A stretch of 26,131 nucleotides of DNA from positions 1 to 26,131 of the forward strand of contig JAKJBT010000011.1 in NCBI GenBank assembly GCA_022706865.1, read 5' to 3'. The position numbers were made by a program, and so were the translations under genes. Every line of letters begins with the position of its first letter. Within the stretch, counting starts at the first letter, position 1. The DNA comes from Bacillota bacterium (lineage in GTDB: Bacteria; Bacillota_A; Clostridia; Lutisporales; Lutisporaceae). This document shows, in pieces, positions 4,281 to 18,421 of this stretch. The notes under the pieces are model-generated. The model was not told the DNA's origin. It was given only the letters and a program-made list of their open reading frames with translations, and did no database searches.

Positions 4281-5060
4281 TCATATAATACTGAGTTCTT
4301 TTGCCCGAAGGACCGCATCCTTTGCATTGTTTACACCCAGTTTCTGATAAGCCAGTTTTGTATGGTATCGGATAGTATTAATAGAAAGTCCTGTCAGTTC
4401 AACGACTTCAGCATTTTTATAACCTTTGGCCAGCAGTTCAATCATATGTTTTTGCTGGGCTGAAAGCTTTACCTGTTTTCGACCCATACTGGTACCTATT
4501 CCTTTATACCGCTTTGACTGTTCATAAACCGACATATACACAGTTTTCATATAAGGGCTGCCGGGCATAACCGTTCCATTCCCCATATCAGCCTTTTTTA
4601 TAAGTTTTTTTAGAACCGGTAGAATTGCATTGCCCTCATCCGCAAATACCCTGATATAACAGTAGGGTTCCATATCCAACAGGGTTTTCTGAAGAAGGGC
4701 TGAAGCCTGCGTTTCTCTGTCCGTCAACCGCAGAATAACGGTCAGAAGTACGGCGGCCTCAGCCGCATCAATAAGCCTGTGATAGTCAGTACACAGCTTC
4801 CAAAGCTTTTCGCAAAGTAATTCTGCTTTTTCATATTCCTCAAGAACAATATAAGCCCTTACAGTTGTAAAGTGCAGAAAAATCCTATGCAGTTCAGGAT
4901 TATAGGATTCGGTAATGAAATAATTTTCGAGCCATTCCTTTGCCGCGCTGCTGTCGCCGTCCAGAAGCTTCAGCTTCGTTTCATAAGCTGAGAATACAGG
5001 AAGCAATCTGCATCCTGGACAGAAATTCAAGCTCAGGTGAAACGGAAACCGGATTTTCAT
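4281..5060 (-). CDS. MalT/LuxR-type regulator, C-terminal part (frameshifted from the N-terminal part)
   Basis: This frame carries the rest of the regulator that starts at 6702. It has TPR-like helices (SAYETKLKLLDGD...AAKEWLENYF) and ends in a LuxR helix-turn-helix with LSAQQKHMIELLAKGYKNAE, INTIRYHTKLAYQKLGV and KDAVLRA motifs. The ATG at 5060 has no ribosome binding site, so separate translation is unlikely. The reading frame differs from the N-terminal part by one base, and the switch must fall in or just above 4981-5060. Either the gene is broken, or the sequence has a one-base error, or a frameshift is programmed; no classic slippery heptamer is evident. Confidence 0.75.
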   Translation of the reverse strand: MKIRFPFHLSLNFCPGCRLLPVFSAYETKLKLLDGDSSAAKEWLENYFITESYNPELHRIFLHFTTVRAYIVLEEYEKAELLCEKLWKLCTDYHRLIDAAEAAVLLTVILRLTDRETQASALLQKTLLDMEPYCYIRVFADEGNAILPVLKKLIKKADMGNGTVMPGSPYMKTVYMSVYEQSKRYKGIGTSMGRKQVKLSAQQKHMIELLAKGYKNAEVVELTGLSINTIRYHTKLAYQKLGVNNAKDAVLRAKELSII

Positions 5061-6702
5061 CTACAAGTGAAAGCGCATCCTGGATCCGGTTTTGGTCATA
5101 CAGCAGTCCGGCGCGTATACCCGATTCAATGATGTCGTAATCACTGCCCAAAAGGGATGAAAACACAAGAGAGAATTCGGCGAAATGCTCCTCAGTGTTC
5201 AGCGCATAATGGGAATAATCCCTGTAAGTCCTGTGAAAATAAGGCATGTTATGGCTGATTGTTTTCGGAATATTCGCGGGATCTACATCAAGGGGGACAG
5301 AGGCTGCCTGCAATCTTGCCAGCTGTTCCATAAACGTATATCTTTGATCTGCCGAATACACAAAAAGCGAGATTTCCAGCAGTGCTTTGTTCTCCCGTAC
5401 GATATCGTAAATCCTGTCATACAGCTTGTCCGAATAAAAATACAGCTCTTCGGCATCGCCGAATAAAAGGGCACACCATGCACAGCTGACATATAAACAC
5501 GGATTTTGCTCCAAGGTTTCTGCCGGCAGCTTGTTAATGAAATACACTTTGGACATTTCCGAGCTTGATTGAGCGTTGAACTTCATAAAGTGATACAAGG
5601 CATCGGCAATCCCCTTGCCGAAGTTACACTTTATATAAAAGCAAAGTGCGTTGAAAAAATCCCCTGAATCAAAATAATAATCTGCCGCCCTCTGATACAA
5701 AGCCTGCCGATCTATTTCAGTCTCTTCCGATAACTCCTCCCGCAAGAAATCCAGAAACAAATTATGGTATCTGTATTCGGCCTCCCGACGGCTGAGAAAC
5801 ATATTCTCGCCAAGTAATTGAAGAAGAATCTGCCGGCTTTCCGGATTCTCAGTAATCTGCCGGCAAAGCTCTGCGGAAAATTTATCCACAACAGCGGTCT
5901 GCAGCATAAATAAGCACAAGTCCCTGTCAAGCTTATCCCATATTTGTGCCTTGATATATTTGCGCAGAGGATTGCCTGGAGATTTTTCCCCCGGATAAAA
6001 GTCTCCGCTCATTGCCAGAGCGTTTACCGCAATAGCCCACCCTTCGGTCAGGGCGCATACTCCTTCAGCCTCCCTCTCGGTGATGAAACGGCCGTAGTTT
6101 GCGAAGTGCTGCCGTATCTCATATCCTTTAAATGCCTGCTCATCAGCACCGATACAAGCAATTTTTCCGCTTTCTTTGTATTGGGAAAAGGCCTCCGGCA
6201 GCTCGCTGCGGCTTAATACCATAATAGTAAAGGATAACGGAAGCCGTTTAAAAGCATAGATGAGAGACTTAATAATTTCTTTATTGGTAATAAGATGGAA
6301 GTCATCCAACACAAGAGCATATTTGCAATCCTCAAAAGAAAGCAGCGAGATGATCTCGATGGTGTATTCAACCGATGATGCACTGAATTCCGGGGCTTTG
6401 ATCAGTTCCGCCAGGTTTTCCTTATGGGGGACTGCAGAAAAGAGCGCCATACAGAAAACTCGATAAAAGCCTGCCAGTGTGTTATCATATGCATCAAGGC
6501 CAATCCAGATGGTTTTGTACTCAGACTCCCTCAGCCACAAAAGGGTAGACACGGTTTTCCCGCTGCCGGCAGGCGCATGTATGTAAATACATCTTTTTTC
6601 GCTGGCTTTCCGATAAACATCCATCAGCAGAGCCCGCGGAGCACATATCTCGGGAAGGTTTATCGGAACAAGCTTTTCGGTTTTATATTTCTGAGGGTTC
6701 AT
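4981..6702 (-). CDS. MalT/LuxR-type ATP-dependent transcriptional regulator, N-terminal part (frameshifted)
   Basis: N-terminal 573 residues of a large signal-sensing activator. The STAND-type NTPase domain has Walker A APAGSGKT (43-50) and Walker B LVLDDFH (130-136), then helical TPR-like repeats. The frame ends at a TGA at 4981-4983, just where homologs continue to a LuxR DNA-binding domain; that domain lies in the next frame, down to 4281. Joined by a one-base change, the protein would be about 806 residues, a little short for the family. The ATG at 6702 has GGAGG six nt upstream. A sigma-A promoter (TTGTAA-N16-TATAAT) precedes it. It faces the surface-protein operon at 6928 and is the obvious candidate to control it. 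Confidence 0.85.
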   Translation of the reverse strand: MNPQKYKTEKLVPINLPEICAPRALLMDVYRKASEKRCIYIHAPAGSGKTVSTLLWLRESEYKTIWIGLDAYDNTLAGFYRVFCMALFSAVPHKENLAELIKAPEFSASSVEYTIEIISLLSFEDCKYALVLDDFHLITNKEIIKSLIYAFKRLPLSFTIMVLSRSELPEAFSQYKESGKIACIGADEQAFKGYEIRQHFANYGRFITEREAEGVCALTEGWAIAVNALAMSGDFYPGEKSPGNPLRKYIKAQIWDKLDRDLCLFMLQTAVVDKFSAELCRQITENPESRQILLQLLGENMFLSRREAEYRYHNLFLDFLREELSEETEIDRQALYQRAADYYFDSGDFFNALCFYIKCNFGKGIADALYHFMKFNAQSSSEMSKVYFINKLPAETLEQNPCLYVSCAWCALLFGDAEELYFYSDKLYDRIYDIVRENKALLEISLFVYSADQRYTFMEQLARLQAASVPLDVDPANIPKTISHNMPYFHRTYRDYSHYALNTEEHFAEFSLVFSSLLGSDYDIIESGIRAGLLYDQNRIQDALSLVDENPVSVSPELEFLSRMQIASCILSL

Positions 6703-12321: not shown

Positions 12322-12854
12322 AGAAGAAGGGCTTAATATCTGAAGTTTGCATAACCCTCCGCAAGAGACAGTATAGTATATCGAGGCACACGGATTATGA
12401 TTTTGACAGGACTACTGCTATGCCTTTGGAAAAGTTCTAACGGTGCCAAAAGGCCCTCCATGGCCCGAGACACCTAAGCCGGCGTCCATGCCGGCTTCAC
12501 GAACTTTTTACCAAAGCCATATCAGAGGCCTGTTGCAAAATGCATAAAAGTGTGCCCTGCTATACTATACAAGCTCTTGCTTGGTATGTAACCTACAGAG
12601 CACTGGCCTTGTATATTAGCGAGCACTTATTATTGGCTTTGGTCAACAGAATCGAGTGAAGATGCGCAGTAAAATCCGTGGGATTTACGTGAGGTAAATC
12701 CAGCACATACCAACAGGAGGTTGGGTTTATGTGCGTCAGGATTTTACAAGTATCAAGCTCTGATTTTGTCCAAAGCTAATATCGTGCGAGTTGGTATACA
12801 AGGCTAGTGCTCTGAGAGTATGACTGCAAACTTATATCTATGTCGCATTCTTCT
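12322..12854. repeat. Composite palindromic element (copy B, two nested modules)
   Basis: Non-coding 533-bp unit. Module I (about 12322-12586) folds on itself: its left arm (GCAAGAGACAGTATAGTATA, 12361-12380) is the imperfect inverse of its right arm (TATACTATACAAGCTCTTGC, 12561-12580), and the right arm matches copies A and C. Module II (about 12587-12854) is also a long palindrome and matches copy D at 21656 in reverse. The outer ends are inverted copies (AGAAG...GAAGTTTGCA left, inverse of TGCAAACTTAT...ATTCTTCTT right). It carries no transposase or ORF. It ends at the stop codon of the P-type ATPase gene. It fills most of the 613-nt gap between that gene and the one at 12240. Confidence 0.8.
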
Positions 12855-15019
12855 TACATGTCTTTCAGGTTTAGTACCCTAATTGCATTCAATACCGCTA
12901 TCAGCGCAACTCCCACATCTGCAAATACCGCTTCCCACATCGTTGCCAATCCTCCGGCACCCAGAAGCAGCACAATCAGCTTAACGCTCATTGCAAATAC
13001 AATATTTTGCCATACAATCCTCCTGGTTTTCTTTGCTATCCTTATGGCGCTGACTATTTTGGACGGCTCATCCGTCATTATCACTATATCCGCTGCTTCA
13101 ATTGCCGCGTCGGAGCCCAGGCCGCCCATCGCAATTCCGACATCTGCCCTTGCCAATACAGGGGCATCGTTAATACCGTCTCCCACAAAGGCAACCTTGC
13201 CCTTGGATCTCATCTCATTCTTAATCCATTCAAGCTTTTCAACCTTTTGATCCGGCAACAGCTCCGAATGCACCTCGTCCAGCCCCAGTGCCGACCCTAC
13301 TTTCTCTCCTGCTGCTCTGACGTCCCCGGTAAGCATCACGGTTTTCTTTATGCCTGAAGCCTTAAGGAGGCGAATGGCTCTTTCCGCATCATCTTTTATT
13401 TCATCAGAAATTACTATATATCCCGCATAAGCTCCTTCAATTGCTATATGCACAAGAGCTCCCGCAATATCAGGACTTTTTTCTGATATTCCCTCCAATT
13501 GCATCATTTTCATATTTCCTGCTGCTATCCTTTTCCCGGAGACCTCTGCCCTGACCCCATGTCCGGGAATCTCCTCGTAATCCGAAATTTCGCTTCCGAC
13601 TATCTCACTTCCGTATGCCTTAAGTATTGATAATGCAATGGGATGGCCGGAGTAGCTTTCGACATATGCCGCATATTTCAGCAGCTCTTCTTCCTTCATT
13701 TCACCCAGTGCTTTGACTTCAGTCACTTTAAAGACTCCTTTTGTCAGTGTGCCGGTCTTGTCAAATACAATGGTATCCACCTGGTTTAATACATCAAGAT
13801 AATTACTTCCTTTTATAAGCACTCCGTTCTTTGAAGCACCTCCAATACCCCCGAAAAATCCCAAAGGTATTGATATGACCAAAGCACAGGGACATGAAAC
13901 CACAAGGAATATCAATGCCCTGTAAATCCAGTCTGAGAAAGCTTCTCCCTGCAGCACCAAAGGCGGAACAAAAGCAAGAGCTAATGCGGAAAACACGACT
14001 ACAGGAGTGTAATACCTTGCAAACTTGGTAATGAAGTTTTCGGTGTGGGATTTTTTACTGCTTGCGTTCTCTACCATGTCAAGAATCTTGGATACCGTCG
14101 ATTCTCCAAACTCCTTGCTCACTTCAACGGTAATAGCACCACTGTTATTAATAAAGCCAGCCAGAATCTCATCCCCGGCATTGGCTTCCCTTGGTGCCGA
14201 CTCTCCGGTCAAAGCCGAAGTATCCAGCATTGATCTGCCTTCTGTTATTCTGCCGTCCAGAGGAACCCTTTCCCCCGGCTTTACAATTATATAAGCTCCC
14301 ACCGGCACATCTTCCGGGGGCACCTGTATTATCCGGTCTTCAGAGACCAGGTTGGCATATTCAGGCCGTATGTCCATCAGTTCTTTTATAGACCTTCTGG
14401 AACGATCTACCGCTAAATCCTGGAACATCTCACCTATCTGATAAAAAATCATTACCGCGACGCCTTCGGAGTATTCTCCTATTGCAAATGCTCCAATAGT
14501 TGCAAGACTCATAAGGAAGTTCTCATCAAAGACCTGCCCCTTGAAAATATTCCTTATCGATTTGATAAGTACTTCTCCTCCGACCAATGCATATGCTGTC
14601 AAATATATAGCCAATTCTACACCGGCAGAAAGCTTAAGCAAAACAGCCGCAGCAAAAAATGCGGCACCGATACCTAATTGAAGCAGCTTCAGCCTTTGTA
14701 TCCCTGATTCATTTTCTTCTTCCGAGTCTATTTCCCCGGTCTTTCTATTTGTTATCTCTTTAAGCTTTACGTCAGGCTCAATATCCCTTACTATTTGCTT
14801 TACTTCTTTTACTGCTGCCGCCTCATCGGCAGATTCGAATATCTCAAGCTTCAGCTTTTTTGTCACAAAATCTATAGATGAGCTCCTAATCCCTTCCAGG
14901 GATTTGATGCCAAGATCCATCTTGGCAGCACATGCTGCTCAGCCAAGGCCTGTGAGTATGAATTCTTTTACAACATATTCATCGTTTTTCTCAAGATCTG
15001 CTGCCGTTTCTCTTTTCAC
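12854..15019 (-). CDS. cadA: Zn/Cd/Pb P1B-type ATPase, probable selenoprotein (in-frame UGA at 14939-14941)
   Basis: Metal-exporting P-type ATPase, 721 residues if the UGA is read. The core has TGE (271-273), the ion-binding CPC (376-378), DKTGT with phosphorylated Asp420, an HP motif (His459), GDGIND, and membrane Lys680 and Asp701, which indicate the P1B-2 (CadA/ZntA) Zn/Cd/Pb group. An ordinary reading would start at ATG 14920 and lose the beginning of the heavy-metal-associated domain. Upstream the same frame continues through one TGA to GTG 15019 (GGGGGA six nt before). It reads EYVVKEFILTGLG-UGA-AACAAKM, the HMA metal motif GxxCxxCAxK with residue 27 as UGA in place of the first Cys. 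A SECIS-like hairpin follows. It is 32 nt downstream of its ArsR-type repressor. Confidence 0.88.
14908..14927 (-). promoter_or_regulatory. Bacterial SECIS-like hairpin after the cadA UGA
   Basis: Counting from the base after UGA, bases 12-19 (TGCCAAGA) pair perfectly with 24-31 (TCTTGGCA) around loop TGGA (20-23). A G in the apical loop at 21-22 lies in the distance range known for bacterial SECIS elements bound by SelB. Confidence 0.8.
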
Positions 15020-15051
15020 ATTAATTCCCCCGTCTCACGCTTTGTTTGATG

Positions 15052-15420
15052 CTATCTCTCCTTGATATGTACCAGGCCTTGGTCGAATATCTGTTTTACA
15101 TGTTCATCATCCAAGGAATAATACACTACTTTGCCTTCTTTTCTGTATTTAACAAGCCTTGCCTGTTTCAGAACTCTGAGTTGGTGGGATATTGCAGACT
15201 GATTCATAGATAATAGTGCCGCTATATCGCATACACACATCTCAGATTCAAACAATGCACACAGTATTTTAATTCTTGTAGTGTCGCCAAAAACCTTGAA
15301 CAACTCGGCCAGGTCATATAACGTCTCTTCTTCAGGCATGCTGTCCCTTACTTTTGACACGGTATCTTCATGTATCACGGAACAGCTGCAGCTTTCAATA
15401 CTTACCCTCTTTTCTCCCAT
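15052..15420 (-). CDS. ArsR/SmtB-family metal-responsive repressor (CadC-like)
   Basis: A 122-residue winged-helix repressor that would release DNA on binding metal. It has the CadC-type thiol site: Cys11 and Cys13 near the N-terminus and Cys62-x-Cys64 (MCVCDIA) in the DNA-binding region. It also has the SmtB-type alpha-5 site: Asp105, His107, His118, Glu121. Recognition helix: NQSAISHQLRVLKQA. Zn, Cd and Pb are therefore the likely inducers. I choose ATG 15420, with CGGAGGGA upstream; an upstream in-frame ATG at 15456 lies within the operator. It is the first gene of the operon with cadA and has its own promoter and operator. Confidence 0.92.
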   Translation of the reverse strand: MGEKRVSIESCSCSVIHEDTVSKVRDSMPEEETLYDLAELFKVFGDTTRIKILCALFESEMCVCDIAALLSMNQSAISHQLRVLKQARLVKYRKEGKVVYYSLDDEHVKQIFDQGLVHIKER

Positions 15421-15440
15421 AATTCCCTCCGCATTATTAT

Positions 15441-15468
15441 ATATGAACATATGCATATGTGTTCATAT
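15441..15468. promoter_or_regulatory. Operator palindrome of the metal-resistance operon
   Basis: ATATGAACA (15441-15449) and TGTTCATAT (15460-15468) are inverted around an ATGCAT core. This is the TGAACA-type operator usual for SmtB/CadC regulators. It lies just downstream of the -10 box of the arsR promoter, where binding would block transcription. Confidence 0.8.
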
Positions 15469-15595: not shown

Positions 15596-15925
15596 ATGGC
15601 GAGAGGTTTTAACCATGGCTTGTATGGATTGAATAAGCCCGGCTGAGAGCCGGTATCAGCACCGGAAGATTTTTCGGGAGTATTTTACTCAAAATCAAGA
15701 AAGCAGCATCTCTCTGCCGCAGTTCCCCCGCCGTCCCCTGATCCGGCCCCCCCTGCAGCAGTTCCCCCTCCGCAGAATCTTGGCGTAATGTTTAACGGGC
15801 TTTTGGGAAATGTGTTTGAGAATAATAACTGGTGGTTGTGGGCTGCTTTACTATTTATCTTCTTTAATCCCGACCTGAGAAAAAAATTCATTGGGAAGTC
15901 AAAAGAGGCTGACCAGGAGCCCTAG
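15596..15925 (+). CDS. Small membrane-anchored protein with in-frame UGA, candidate selenoprotein
   Basis: An open frame of 109 codons including one TGA (codon 17, 15644-15646). The ATG at 15596 has the perfect site AAGGAGG. The frame reads MARGFNHGLYGLNKPG, UGA, EPVSAPEDFSG, a Pro/Ala-rich linker (about 43-62), then a C-terminal membrane helix (WWLWAALLFIFF) and a basic tail. Its TAG overlaps the stop of the convergent cooS (shared CTAG at 15922-15925), so the frame is kept to the very end. A SECIS-like hairpin follows the UGA. It might be a selenoprotein, a decayed gene, or a start downstream of the TGA; no ribosome site supports the last. The two small paralogs at 3398 and 3981 have Cys in the comparable N-terminal region. 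The promoter suggests sporulation. Confidence 0.5.
15662..15677 (+). promoter_or_regulatory. SECIS-like hairpin after the UGA of the small ORF
   Basis: CCGGAA pairs with TTTCGG (one G-U pair) around loop GATT; the loop G is base 22 after the UGA, the same distance as in the cadA hairpin. A second small hairpin, CCGGT-ATCAGC-ACCGG, overlaps its 5' arm, so the fold is ambiguous. Confidence 0.45.
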
Positions 15926-15937
15926 TCAGCCTCTCTC
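15905..15937. terminator. Bidirectional terminator hairpin between the small ORF and cooS
   Basis: AGAGGCTGAC and GTCAGCCTCT form a perfect 10-bp stem around an 11-base loop. It spans the last codons and overlapping stops of both convergent genes. T-runs are short, so its strength is uncertain. Confidence 0.55.
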
Positions 15938-17823
15938 AACCCCAAGCCTTTTCTCTTGGAAATGATATGCGCTTCAATATTGTTTGCCGCTTCCACCGGA
16001 TCATCCCCCAGTGCGATCTTACCCCCTGTCAGTCCTTCCACATCTTCTGTAAGAAGCTTAACCAACCCCGGAGCTCCTGTGACAAAAGGTATCGGTGACA
16101 GGTGGGTATAGGCACCGTAGGCTACTGCAAAGAAGCCGTCGATAGTTGCCTTCTGCTCCATCCACTCAGGTGCTGTTACCGCTATGGGAAGCTGCGGTAT
16201 GTCGGCATCCAGATGGTCTGCCAGTGCCGTTACCAGCATGGATAACCTGCCTGTATCGGTACAGGTGCCAAAGCTTAATACCGGTGGAATCTTAAGCAGG
16301 CCGCAGACTTCCTTCAAACCGTTCCCTGCCAAATTGACAGCATCCATATTACAGAGTCCTGCCACCTCAAGGGCATGGTTGCCGCAGCCGCCGGCTGCCA
16401 CAAGTATGTCTTTCTTAATCAGCTCTTTTACAAGATTCACAGTCATCCAATCCTGGGGCCCGTTCCTAAGGGTTGAACAGTTGGCAAGAGCCACTACCCC
16501 TTTAATCTTTCCGGCGGCTATTACATCAACCAGGGGATCCAGCTTGCCTCCCAGAGCCTCCAGCACTGCTTCGGTTGAAAAGCCTGCTATGGCTTTAGTA
16601 ATATGCTGCGGTACTTTTGGGACTATTTTGTTGTGTCGTTTTTTAAAGTTCTCCAGAGCAAGCTCAATGAGCCTGTCTGCCATTTCGCCTGCCTTTTCGG
16701 GATCATAGGGTATCTTGTGCTTCAGCCCCGGAAGGTCTATTATAGTGCTTACTGATACAAGAGTAGCCTGATATTTTTCAGCATACATATCAATAGCCGG
16801 AGGCGAGCAATTTTCTTCCATAGCCAATACATCCACCGCACCGGTTGCAAGCATCGGTTCAATAGAAAGCCAGTTGCCCATCAGTCCTGCAAATATATCG
16901 TCAATCTCAAACCTTTGAAGCAGCTCCTGCCCGGTTTCTATTGACCCCACAATTCGAAGCCCCTTAGCCCCCTCCTTTCTTGCCCGTTCCTGAACCTCAG
17001 GGGTCCTGGCCTTCTGCAGCGTGGCCACACCGGGCCATGGCTGATGGCCGTTAAAAACTATATTCACATAGTCCGGGTCAAAAATACCCAAATCGACATT
17101 TACTTCATGGGGTTTCGGGGTTCCGAACAGTATATCCTGAACCATTTCCAGCCCTATTTGTGAATTGTATATTGTTGCCAGGCCCAGGCGCAAAGCTTTT
17201 ATTGCCAGAGATACATGGCTGCCGTCCACATTTGTAAGGCAGCTTGCCACACAATTCTGCTCCTCATGTATACTGCCCGCCGGATACAAGCCCAGCTTCC
17301 TCCATACTTCCTTCCTCTTCCGGGGTGCGAATGCTTCAACCATTATATTGGTCTCTTCAGAGCCTATATGCATTTGGGCCTCCAGAAAGTTTGCCAGTTC
17401 CTCCGCCATTTTGTTCACATCCTGCTTGCTGTCAATCCCTACGGTATCACACATCCATTTAAGCTTATCCACATCGGTGATCTTAAAGGGGGTTTTCCCC
17501 TGTGCGGTCTCCCTAAGGGTTCGGAAAGCCTCATAGGCATGATGGCTGTATGTACCTGCCCCCATGATATTTCTCAGAAGCATATTCCTCATTGCCATTG
17601 CGTCACTGCCTATTCCGCATACTCCCTTGTCTTGTCCGCTTTTTTCGCTGATTCTGCAAGGGCCGTTGGTACAAAGCTGGCAGCTTAATCCCTGTAGGCA
17701 GAATTTACAGCGGATTTTCTCCTGCTGTGCATATCTGTCAAAAGCATTGGACATTCCGTCTTCCCTTATTCTCGGAAGCATCTCCTCTACCGAATCATGA
17801 TAGCTTACCCTAGTTTCTACCAT
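15922..17823 (-). CDS. cooS: Nickel-iron carbon monoxide dehydrogenase catalytic subunit (variant)
   Basis: A 633-residue anaerobic CO dehydrogenase (CO + H2O to CO2 + 2 electrons), full length for the family. The N-terminal cluster region has Cys39, 42, 48, 51, 56 and 69. Kept active-site features include GHQPWPG (His ligand), EENCSPPAID, ANCST, GGCGNHA, GTCTDTGR and the Lys of WMEQKATIDG. Two things differ from the Carboxydothermus CODH-II pattern as I recall it: the Cys pair of the D cluster reads CxxC (39, 42) rather than Cx7C, and the segment usually CCTGNE reads IETGQE, without the C-cluster cysteine. No cooF, cooC or acetyl-CoA synthase gene is near. The ATG at 17823 follows GGAAGGAG. 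Confidence 0.93.
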   Translation of the reverse strand: MVETRVSYHDSVEEMLPRIREDGMSNAFDRYAQQEKIRCKFCLQGLSCQLCTNGPCRISEKSGQDKGVCGIGSDAMAMRNMLLRNIMGAGTYSHHAYEAFRTLRETAQGKTPFKITDVDKLKWMCDTVGIDSKQDVNKMAEELANFLEAQMHIGSEETNIMVEAFAPRKRKEVWRKLGLYPAGSIHEEQNCVASCLTNVDGSHVSLAIKALRLGLATIYNSQIGLEMVQDILFGTPKPHEVNVDLGIFDPDYVNIVFNGHQPWPGVATLQKARTPEVQERARKEGAKGLRIVGSIETGQELLQRFEIDDIFAGLMGNWLSIEPMLATGAVDVLAMEENCSPPAIDMYAEKYQATLVSVSTIIDLPGLKHKIPYDPEKAGEMADRLIELALENFKKRHNKIVPKVPQHITKAIAGFSTEAVLEALGGKLDPLVDVIAAGKIKGVVALANCSTLRNGPQDWMTVNLVKELIKKDILVAAGGCGNHALEVAGLCNMDAVNLAGNGLKEVCGLLKIPPVLSFGTCTDTGRLSMLVTALADHLDADIPQLPIAVTAPEWMEQKATIDGFFAVAYGAYTHLSPIPFVTGAPGLVKLLTEDVEGLTGGKIALGDDPVEAANNIEAHIISKRKGLGLREAD

Positions 17824-17949: not shown

Positions 17950-18405
17950 TTATTTCCCTGATTCCACCTCATAAGGCCAATCCATTATTCCGCCCAGGTT
18001 GTATACCTTGGTGTATCCAAGTCCTGCCAATATGTTAGCAGCACTGGTACTTCTTTTGCCGCTTGCACAGTATACGATAATATCCGCATTCTTATCGGTC
18101 AACTCTGCTTCTGCTCTCTTCTCCAATTCATTTACCGGTATCGAAATACTTCCCGGTATATGTTGTTCTTCGTATTCACCCTGGCTCCTTACATCCAAAA
18201 GTATAATATCCTCTTCCGATTCCAGCCTTTTGTATGCCTCTTCAGGAGAAATACTTTCGGGTTGAACTACTTCAGGTTGAACTATTTCGGGCTGAACTAT
18301 TTCTGCGGGACTTTGAGAGACGTTCTGCTGTGGTTTTGTACCGCAGGCTGAAAATACTGCGGCCCCCAATATTACTGCCAGCAATAATATTACTATTCTC
18401 TTCAT
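17950..18405 (-). CDS. Rhodanese-domain lipoprotein
   Basis: A 151-residue predicted lipoprotein: signal peptide with lipobox FSAC (Cys21), a short linker with threefold repeat (E(I/V)VQPE), then one rhodanese domain. That domain has LLDVRSQGEYEEQHIPGSI, the active-site Cys113 in CASGKRS, and LGYTKVYNLGGIMDW. It would transfer or bind sulfane sulfur outside the membrane; the true substrate is unknown. I choose ATG 18405 with GGTGGAG nearby; an in-frame GTG at 18414 has a poorer site. It is the last gene of the operon. Confidence 0.85.
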   Translation of the reverse strand: MKRIVILLLAVILGAAVFSACGTKPQQNVSQSPAEIVQPEIVQPEVVQPESISPEEAYKRLESEEDIILLDVRSQGEYEEQHIPGSISIPVNELEKRAEAELTDKNADIIVYCASGKRSTSAANILAGLGYTKVYNLGGIMDWPYEVESGK

Positions 18406-18421
18406 TCGCTCCACCGTCCTG

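Follow-up and report, generated by a model that had tools for sequence, protein, structure and literature searches.

A P1B-type heavy-metal ATPase gene with a predicted selenocysteine codon in its metal-binding motif, followed by tandem RNA hairpins

A bacterial heavy-metal ATPase gene interrupted by a single TGA raises the question of whether this codon ends a short upstream frame or encodes selenocysteine (Sec) in the metal-binding domain of a longer pump. The gene lies in a stretch of 26,131 nucleotides from a Bacillota bacterium (assembly GCA_022706865.1, contig JAKJBT010000011.1), referred to here as the window. An earlier note on this DNA had proposed that the frame of cadA extends past ATG 14920 through one TGA to GTG 15019, and that the TGA falls exactly on the first Cys of the HMA metal motif. 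Translation agrees on both points: the minus-strand frame from 15019 to 12854 opens with GTG, holds a single TGA and encodes 721 residues followed by a stop, and the motif reads GLG-U-AAC-AAK, with TGA in the slot of the first Cys. Standard annotation gives the shortened 688-residue protein that the note had expected, as gene calling starts at ATG 14920. The features of the locus are collected in Table 1.

Table 1. Features of the ATPase locus, in window coordinates.
Feature	Position	Strand	Basis
cadA/zntA-like P1B-type ATPase gene, UGA read through, 721 residues	12854..15019	(-)	Translation; TIGR01525 and TIGR01512
Hairpin 2, 6 bp AATCCC/GGGATT, loop UGGAA, loop 40 nt after UGA	14888..14904	(-)	
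Hairpin 1 (the hairpin of the earlier note), 8 bp, loop UGGA, loop 19 nt after UGA	14908..14927	(-)	
Internal ATG of standard gene calling, 688-residue product; overlaps the stem end and loop of hairpin 1	14918..14920	(-)	
HMA domain, residues 20-79, complete only with the UGA read through	14783..14962	(-)	Pfam PF00403
TGA within the frame at codon 27, predicted to encode selenocysteine in place of the first HMA Cys	14939..14941	(-)	Same codon in 8 other copies
Shine-Dalgarno GGGGG (15031-15027) and GTG start (15019-15017)	15017..15031	(-)	Duplex energy
ArsR/SmtB metalloregulator immediately upstream of the ATPase gene; SCSC and CVC motifs	15052..15456	(-)	

The window protein belongs to the heavy-metal, cadmium-type P-type ATPases in the NCBIfam classification, scoring 576.7 bits against TIGR01525 (cut-off 346.25) and 532 bits against TIGR01512 (cut-off 313.5). 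Its CPC motif (C376-P-C378) and its DKTGT motif (D420-KTGT) are invariant across 29 aligned sequences, and its best solved relative is a zinc-transporting ATPase (4umv), with an alignment spanning residues 20-717. The claim that the added upstream codons complete the HMA domain also stands, with the read-through protein, Cys written for UGA, narrowly passing PF00403 (26.3 bits; cut-off 24.8). In an AlphaFold model (mean pLDDT 74.6, pTM 0.53), the HMA fold, β-α-β-β-α-β, occupies residues 15-88. In this model, the first HMA strand (15-23) lies entirely upstream of the UGA, and residue 27 sits in the loop between the first strand and the first helix. The whole architecture, including the HMA domain, the CPC site and the ArsR-family neighbor, is thus that of the Cys-type CadA/ZntA Zn/Cd/Pb ATPases represented by 4umv. 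In contrast to these, the window gene carries a predicted Sec for the first HMA Cys, followed by structured RNA.

The TGA recurs at codon 27 in nine copies of the gene, namely the window and L001, L097, L084, L086, L088, L100, L185 and L030, all of which read GLGUxxCAxKM[DE]. A contig scan for relatives, with the best 80 of 282 retained, contained two of these in clean frame: L001, at 94% identity, and L030 from Fonticella tunisiensis, at 63%. Within the order of L001's genome, an ATPase match is present in 20 of 22 genomes, 17 of them covering residue 27 and 6 carrying an internal TGA; all 6 read GLGUxxCAxK. The copy in G049 has an additional TAA and matches in two pieces, and the gene is therefore broken in that assembly. 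A search for the DNA pattern GGNYTNGRNTGANNNNNNTGYGCNNNNAAR gave matches in 5 of the 391 genomes sampled from L001's class and in 2 of 225 genomes of Fonticella's order, and all seven matches fall within the frame of this ATPase. The reversed pattern, used as a control, was found in 0/391 and 0/225 of the same genomes. Among 79 aligned copies, a set without L185, codon 27 is TGA in 8, TGT in 42 and TGC in 29, with no other codon. A Cys/Sec exchange at residue 27, which the earlier note had proposed looking for in homologs, is hence present, with a Cys codon in 71/71 non-UGA relatives compared and TGA in the nine copies.

The RNA downstream of the codon differs between the two classes of copies. 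Folding of the 54 nt after codon 27 was scored against shuffled versions built from synonymous codons of the same gene. The mean folding energy is -19.4 kcal/mol for 8 Sec copies versus -7.4 kcal/mol for 71 Cys copies, and the mean z is -3.9 versus -0.2 (-0.1 for a stricter selection of 46 Cys copies); the Mann-Whitney p of 1.5e-10 for this difference in z is too good, because the copies have a common ancestry. When stretches are ranked by z, the one after the UGA takes places 4, 2, 1, 1, 1 and 2 among 224 in six Sec genes. Together with the nine same-codon copies and the empty reversed-pattern control, these folding scores support the earlier view that a random stop at this position is improbable.

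Two hairpins make up this structure, and they differ in conservation. The window's hairpin 1, TGCCAAGA-TGGA-TCTTGGCA, is a perfect 8-bp stem that starts at the 12th nt past the UGA, a form that belongs to the window's clade. Elsewhere its pairing is maintained by different codons in a shifted register, as GCCAGC-(9 nt)-GCTGGT in L088, L100 and L185 and as GCTTCC-(9 nt)-GGAAGT in L030, with ATGGA within or beside the loop in 9/9 copies. It is partly lost in L097, which retains 5 contiguous bp (synonymous test p 0.13). Over the nine copies, 66.7% of cells are paired in the window's register and 82.7% in another; having two registers, hairpin 1 was rejected as a single conserved helix. Hairpin 2 is paired in 54/54 cells, and reads GGCGCC-TGGAT-GGCGTT in L030 versus AATCCC-TGGAA-GGGATT in the window. 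Two of its pairs are changed on both sides, which is thin covariation, as both changes come from L030 and the nine sequences represent few clades.

The earlier note had likened the 8-bp TGGA hairpin to bacterial SECIS elements. Bacterial SECIS elements are described with a loop of 3-9 nt, a stem of 4-16 bp, a G position and, for most, a spacing of 16-37 nt in the available text of PMC13188914. Our test used these ranges, a G in the first two loop positions and an energy of -7.5 kcal/mol or lower. Hairpin 1 of the window fits (loop UGGA, 19 nt, 8 bp, -13.2 kcal/mol), and resembles known elements in lying directly downstream of the UGA with a small, G-bearing loop. The note's hairpin is thus present and consistent with the published description in the window, but it is one of two. 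The locus departs from a standard SECIS in that the second hairpin, at 40 nt and outside the 16-37 nt spacing, is better conserved than the first, and in that the first shifts register between clades and, as folded, has no G at the first two loop positions in 6/9 copies (L084, L086, L088, L100, L185 and L030). Owing to this missing G and to the spacing of hairpin 2, neither hairpin fits the published SECIS model in every copy. Rfam returned no match at gathering score on the window, and ARAGORN found nothing there.

The Sec gene selD, which has an internal TGA of its own in 23/23 genomes (loci L151-L173), served as a positive control. A hairpin of at least 6 bp with its loop 33 nt after the UGA is present in 20 of the 22 copies read, and a shorter one of at least 4 bp precedes it in 20/22, by a lax test without a control of its own. 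Since two hairpins occur both in Sec-encoding cadA and in selD, we think of the element as double.

The genes for Sec insertion are widespread in these relatives. A survey of 22 genomes of L001's order and Fonticella found selB and selD above cut-off in 23/23 and tRNA-Sec above cut-off in 17/23. Seven of the eight other Sec-cadA genomes were examined, and selB and selD are present in 7/7, each selD with its internal TGA. Four of these seven also have tRNA-Sec (G027, G041, G044 and G048), and G041 combines selB, selD and tRNA-Sec with a cadA copy 93% identical to the window's. In G001, the one genome searched for it, selA adjoins selB. tRNA-Sec was not found in G001, which holds the 94% identical copy, or in G049 and G050. 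The best Rfam match in G001, at 46.7 bits (cut-off 47), falls on tRNA-Ser genes according to ARAGORN and was counted as absent; so small a gene may have been missed in draft genomes. Sec genes are also present in those genomes of the order whose cadA has Cys, and the machinery thus allows Sec in cadA without dictating it.

The main alternative is that the TGA is a true stop, with the ATPase made from ATG 14920 as a 688-residue protein without a functional HMA domain, and the upstream codons left over or serving as a leader peptide. The 688-residue frame is indeed open and carries the ATPase domains, and some relatives appear to do without the motif: 26 of 109 rows lack the motif and do not align over residue 27 either, some of them fragments or paralogues, and P0045, P0060 and P0064 have no HMA motif. 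However, translation signals point to the upstream start. The duplex energy in the window is -9.8 before the upstream GTG versus -1.9 before the internal ATG. A Shine-Dalgarno sequence precedes the upstream start in 9/9 copies, at -7.9 to -11.0 in 8/9 and weakest in L086 at -6.1, where a contig end is close by; before the internal ATG, energies of -1.9 to -2.2 indicate none in 9/9. The 11 codons upstream of the UGA show dN < dS in 8/8 pairs with finite dS, although counts are small and two pairs are saturated, and the downstream part does so in 10/10 pairs. The stop is, moreover, always TGA, always at the Cys codon and always followed by structured RNA, and the shorter product would, by the structural model, be missing the strand with which the HMA fold begins. 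We consider a true stop very unlikely.

Two further alternatives concern the codon itself. Reading of the UGA as another amino acid such as Trp, by a recoded genome or plain readthrough, would account for the continuation of the frame, which is all that speaks for it. However, selB and selD are present in the relatives, and selA and tRNA-Sec in some of them, and the aligned residue is Cys, not Trp, in 71/71 other relatives, making this reading extremely improbable. Likewise, a single base separates TGA from a Cys codon, and a sequencing or assembly error could create one from the other. Nevertheless, this TGA recurs across nine separate assemblies, with protein identity falling to about 63%, and the internal Met is the first residue of 47 of the 120 database relatives listed, the window's included. 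These independent copies refute an error in practice, and its probability is next to nil.

Selenocysteine at residue 27 is therefore the best reading, given the UGA in nine genomes, Cys in 71/71 other relatives, the structured RNA, the Sec genes of relatives, dN < dS on both sides of the codon and a start signal that is upstream only. We hold with high confidence that the window gene encodes a P1B-type Zn/Cd/Pb efflux ATPase in selenoprotein form; the earlier note's proposal of selenocysteine is by far the best account of the comparative and RNA evidence. In the mechanism that we infer, the ribosome would start at GTG 15019, and at UGA 14941-14939 SelB and tRNA-Sec would insert selenocysteine in place of the first HMA Cys, directed by one or both of the tandem hairpins just downstream. 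The resulting 721-residue protein would bind a soft metal ion through the Sec/Cys pair U27 and C30 in its cytoplasmic HMA domain, and would be phosphorylated at D420 as it exports the ion by way of the CPC site in the membrane. The neighboring ArsR-family repressor would probably place the ATPase under metal control.

The Sec and Cys forms are interleaved among relatives. The window clade (the window, L001, L097 and P0026) is sister to the Cys proteins P0028 and P0029 (SH-aLRT 99), and the window and P0028 form a Sec/Cys pair at 79% identity. Given that these nearest relatives outside the clade have Cys, Sec is not indispensable. A single origin of Sec was rejected, as the tree needs at least five Sec/Cys changes when DNA-verified copies only are counted, and eight if the 688-residue proteins are counted as Sec. 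These counts are soft and the direction of change unproved, since the quick tree covers 75 of 142 rows with SH-aLRT support only and has 22 open forks.

Some Cys copies may retain traces of the element. The strongest-folding among them are L087 (z -2.4), L025 (-2.3) and L096 (-2.1), all with Met after the motif, and L087 pairs in the tree with the Sec copy L088 (SH-aLRT 95). L087 (G054), with the motif GLSCAHCAAKME, is a Cys copy with this Met and a weakened hairpin 2 (AATCCT/GGGATT). It is possible that these three are Sec-to-Cys revertants with a decaying element. In the strict-motif set, Met follows the motif Lys in 8/8 Sec versus 4/46 Cys copies. That first set had been picked by the strict motif, and in the wider set the Met occurs in 20/71 Cys copies, 5/35 at 55% or more identity to the window protein and 15/36 below; it was therefore rejected as an indicator that a copy has, or once had, Sec. 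The 15 distant Met-bearing Cys copies have z between -1.3 and +1.5. A more far-reaching scheme, in which tandem double hairpins insert Sec in both cadA and selD and the gene alternates repeatedly between Sec and Cys, with a decaying element kept in some Cys copies, is tentative and in our judgment rather doubtful. If this holds, the pump would be tuned to very thiophilic metals by the Sec of its HMA site.

Among relatives at 77-83% identity, the HMA motif is missing or decayed in L085 (G042), P0045, P0060 and P0064, and the HMA head of the pump may occasionally be lost. The 47 internal-Met proteins noted above, listed among 120 of 7997 relatives, are a separate matter. They are 687-693 residues long, start with M[DE]LGI and include the window's own protein, P0002. 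Over the columns used for the tree, P0036 matches L084 exactly, and L084 carries the TGA in its DNA. The missing metal-binding head of the 47 proteins is thus probably a matter of annotation only, a statement for which the DNA of few has been seen.

The kind of protein described here is already published. The earlier note had left open whether Sec-containing CadA-like ATPases were known, and they have been since 2008: a heavy-metal P-type ATPase with UxxC is given in the available text of the GOS selenoprotein survey (PMC2398784). Table 3 of PMC5029168 lists the UxxC ATPase family with 25 organisms and 32 proteins, and the family is also tabulated in the reviews PMC9312934 and PMC13188914, with ATPase named in the text of the latter among Sec-containing transporters. 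Nine Carboxydothermus selenoproteins appear in the available portion of PMC1794560 (2006), with no ATPase among them. Among the titles listed in open-access literature searches, none is on this ATPase in particular. With its TIGR01525 ATPase and Sec at the first CxxC position, the window protein fits the cation-transporting ATPase E1-E2, UxxC family (reference ABB15669.1), matched here by its description as a heavy-metal P-type ATPase with UxxC. The window gene is a well-supported addition to this published selenoprotein family.

In the parts of these sources available, the family is given by name, motif and counts, without RNA structure, tree or function. The present analysis adds the double hairpin, the signs of repeated Sec/Cys exchange and the 47 of 120 listed relatives that start at the internal Met. 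Selenocysteine as a predicted metal ligand instead of a redox catalyst is unusual, and the roles of Sec transporters in metal detoxification are said to need further study in the available text of PMC13188914. The natural Sec/Cys pairs, up to 79% identity, provide a clean test of selenium's contribution to a metal-binding domain.

The ArsR-family regulator beside the window ATPase, which we take to be CadC-like, occupies the same place at 5 of the 8 other Sec loci: L001, L125 (G044), L127 (G050), L129 (G041) and L186 (G439). The G048 and G049 copies lie at contig ends, and a relative of the regulator was not found in the examined DNA around L030 (Fonticella). A regulator of this family is also found beside several Cys loci. 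Further frames in the window run on through TGA, an observation from the frame listing alone that carries no claim of Sec. A MalT/LuxR-type regulator at 4281-6702 (-) is apparently split into two overlapping frames, as by a frameshift, with the ATPase part at 4981-6702 and TPR and LuxR helix-turn-helix parts at 4281-5060. Upstream of the ArsR-cadA pair lies a carbon monoxide dehydrogenase-like (Prismane/CODH) gene at 15922-17823 (-), adjoined by a rhodanese-domain gene at 17950-18414 (-).
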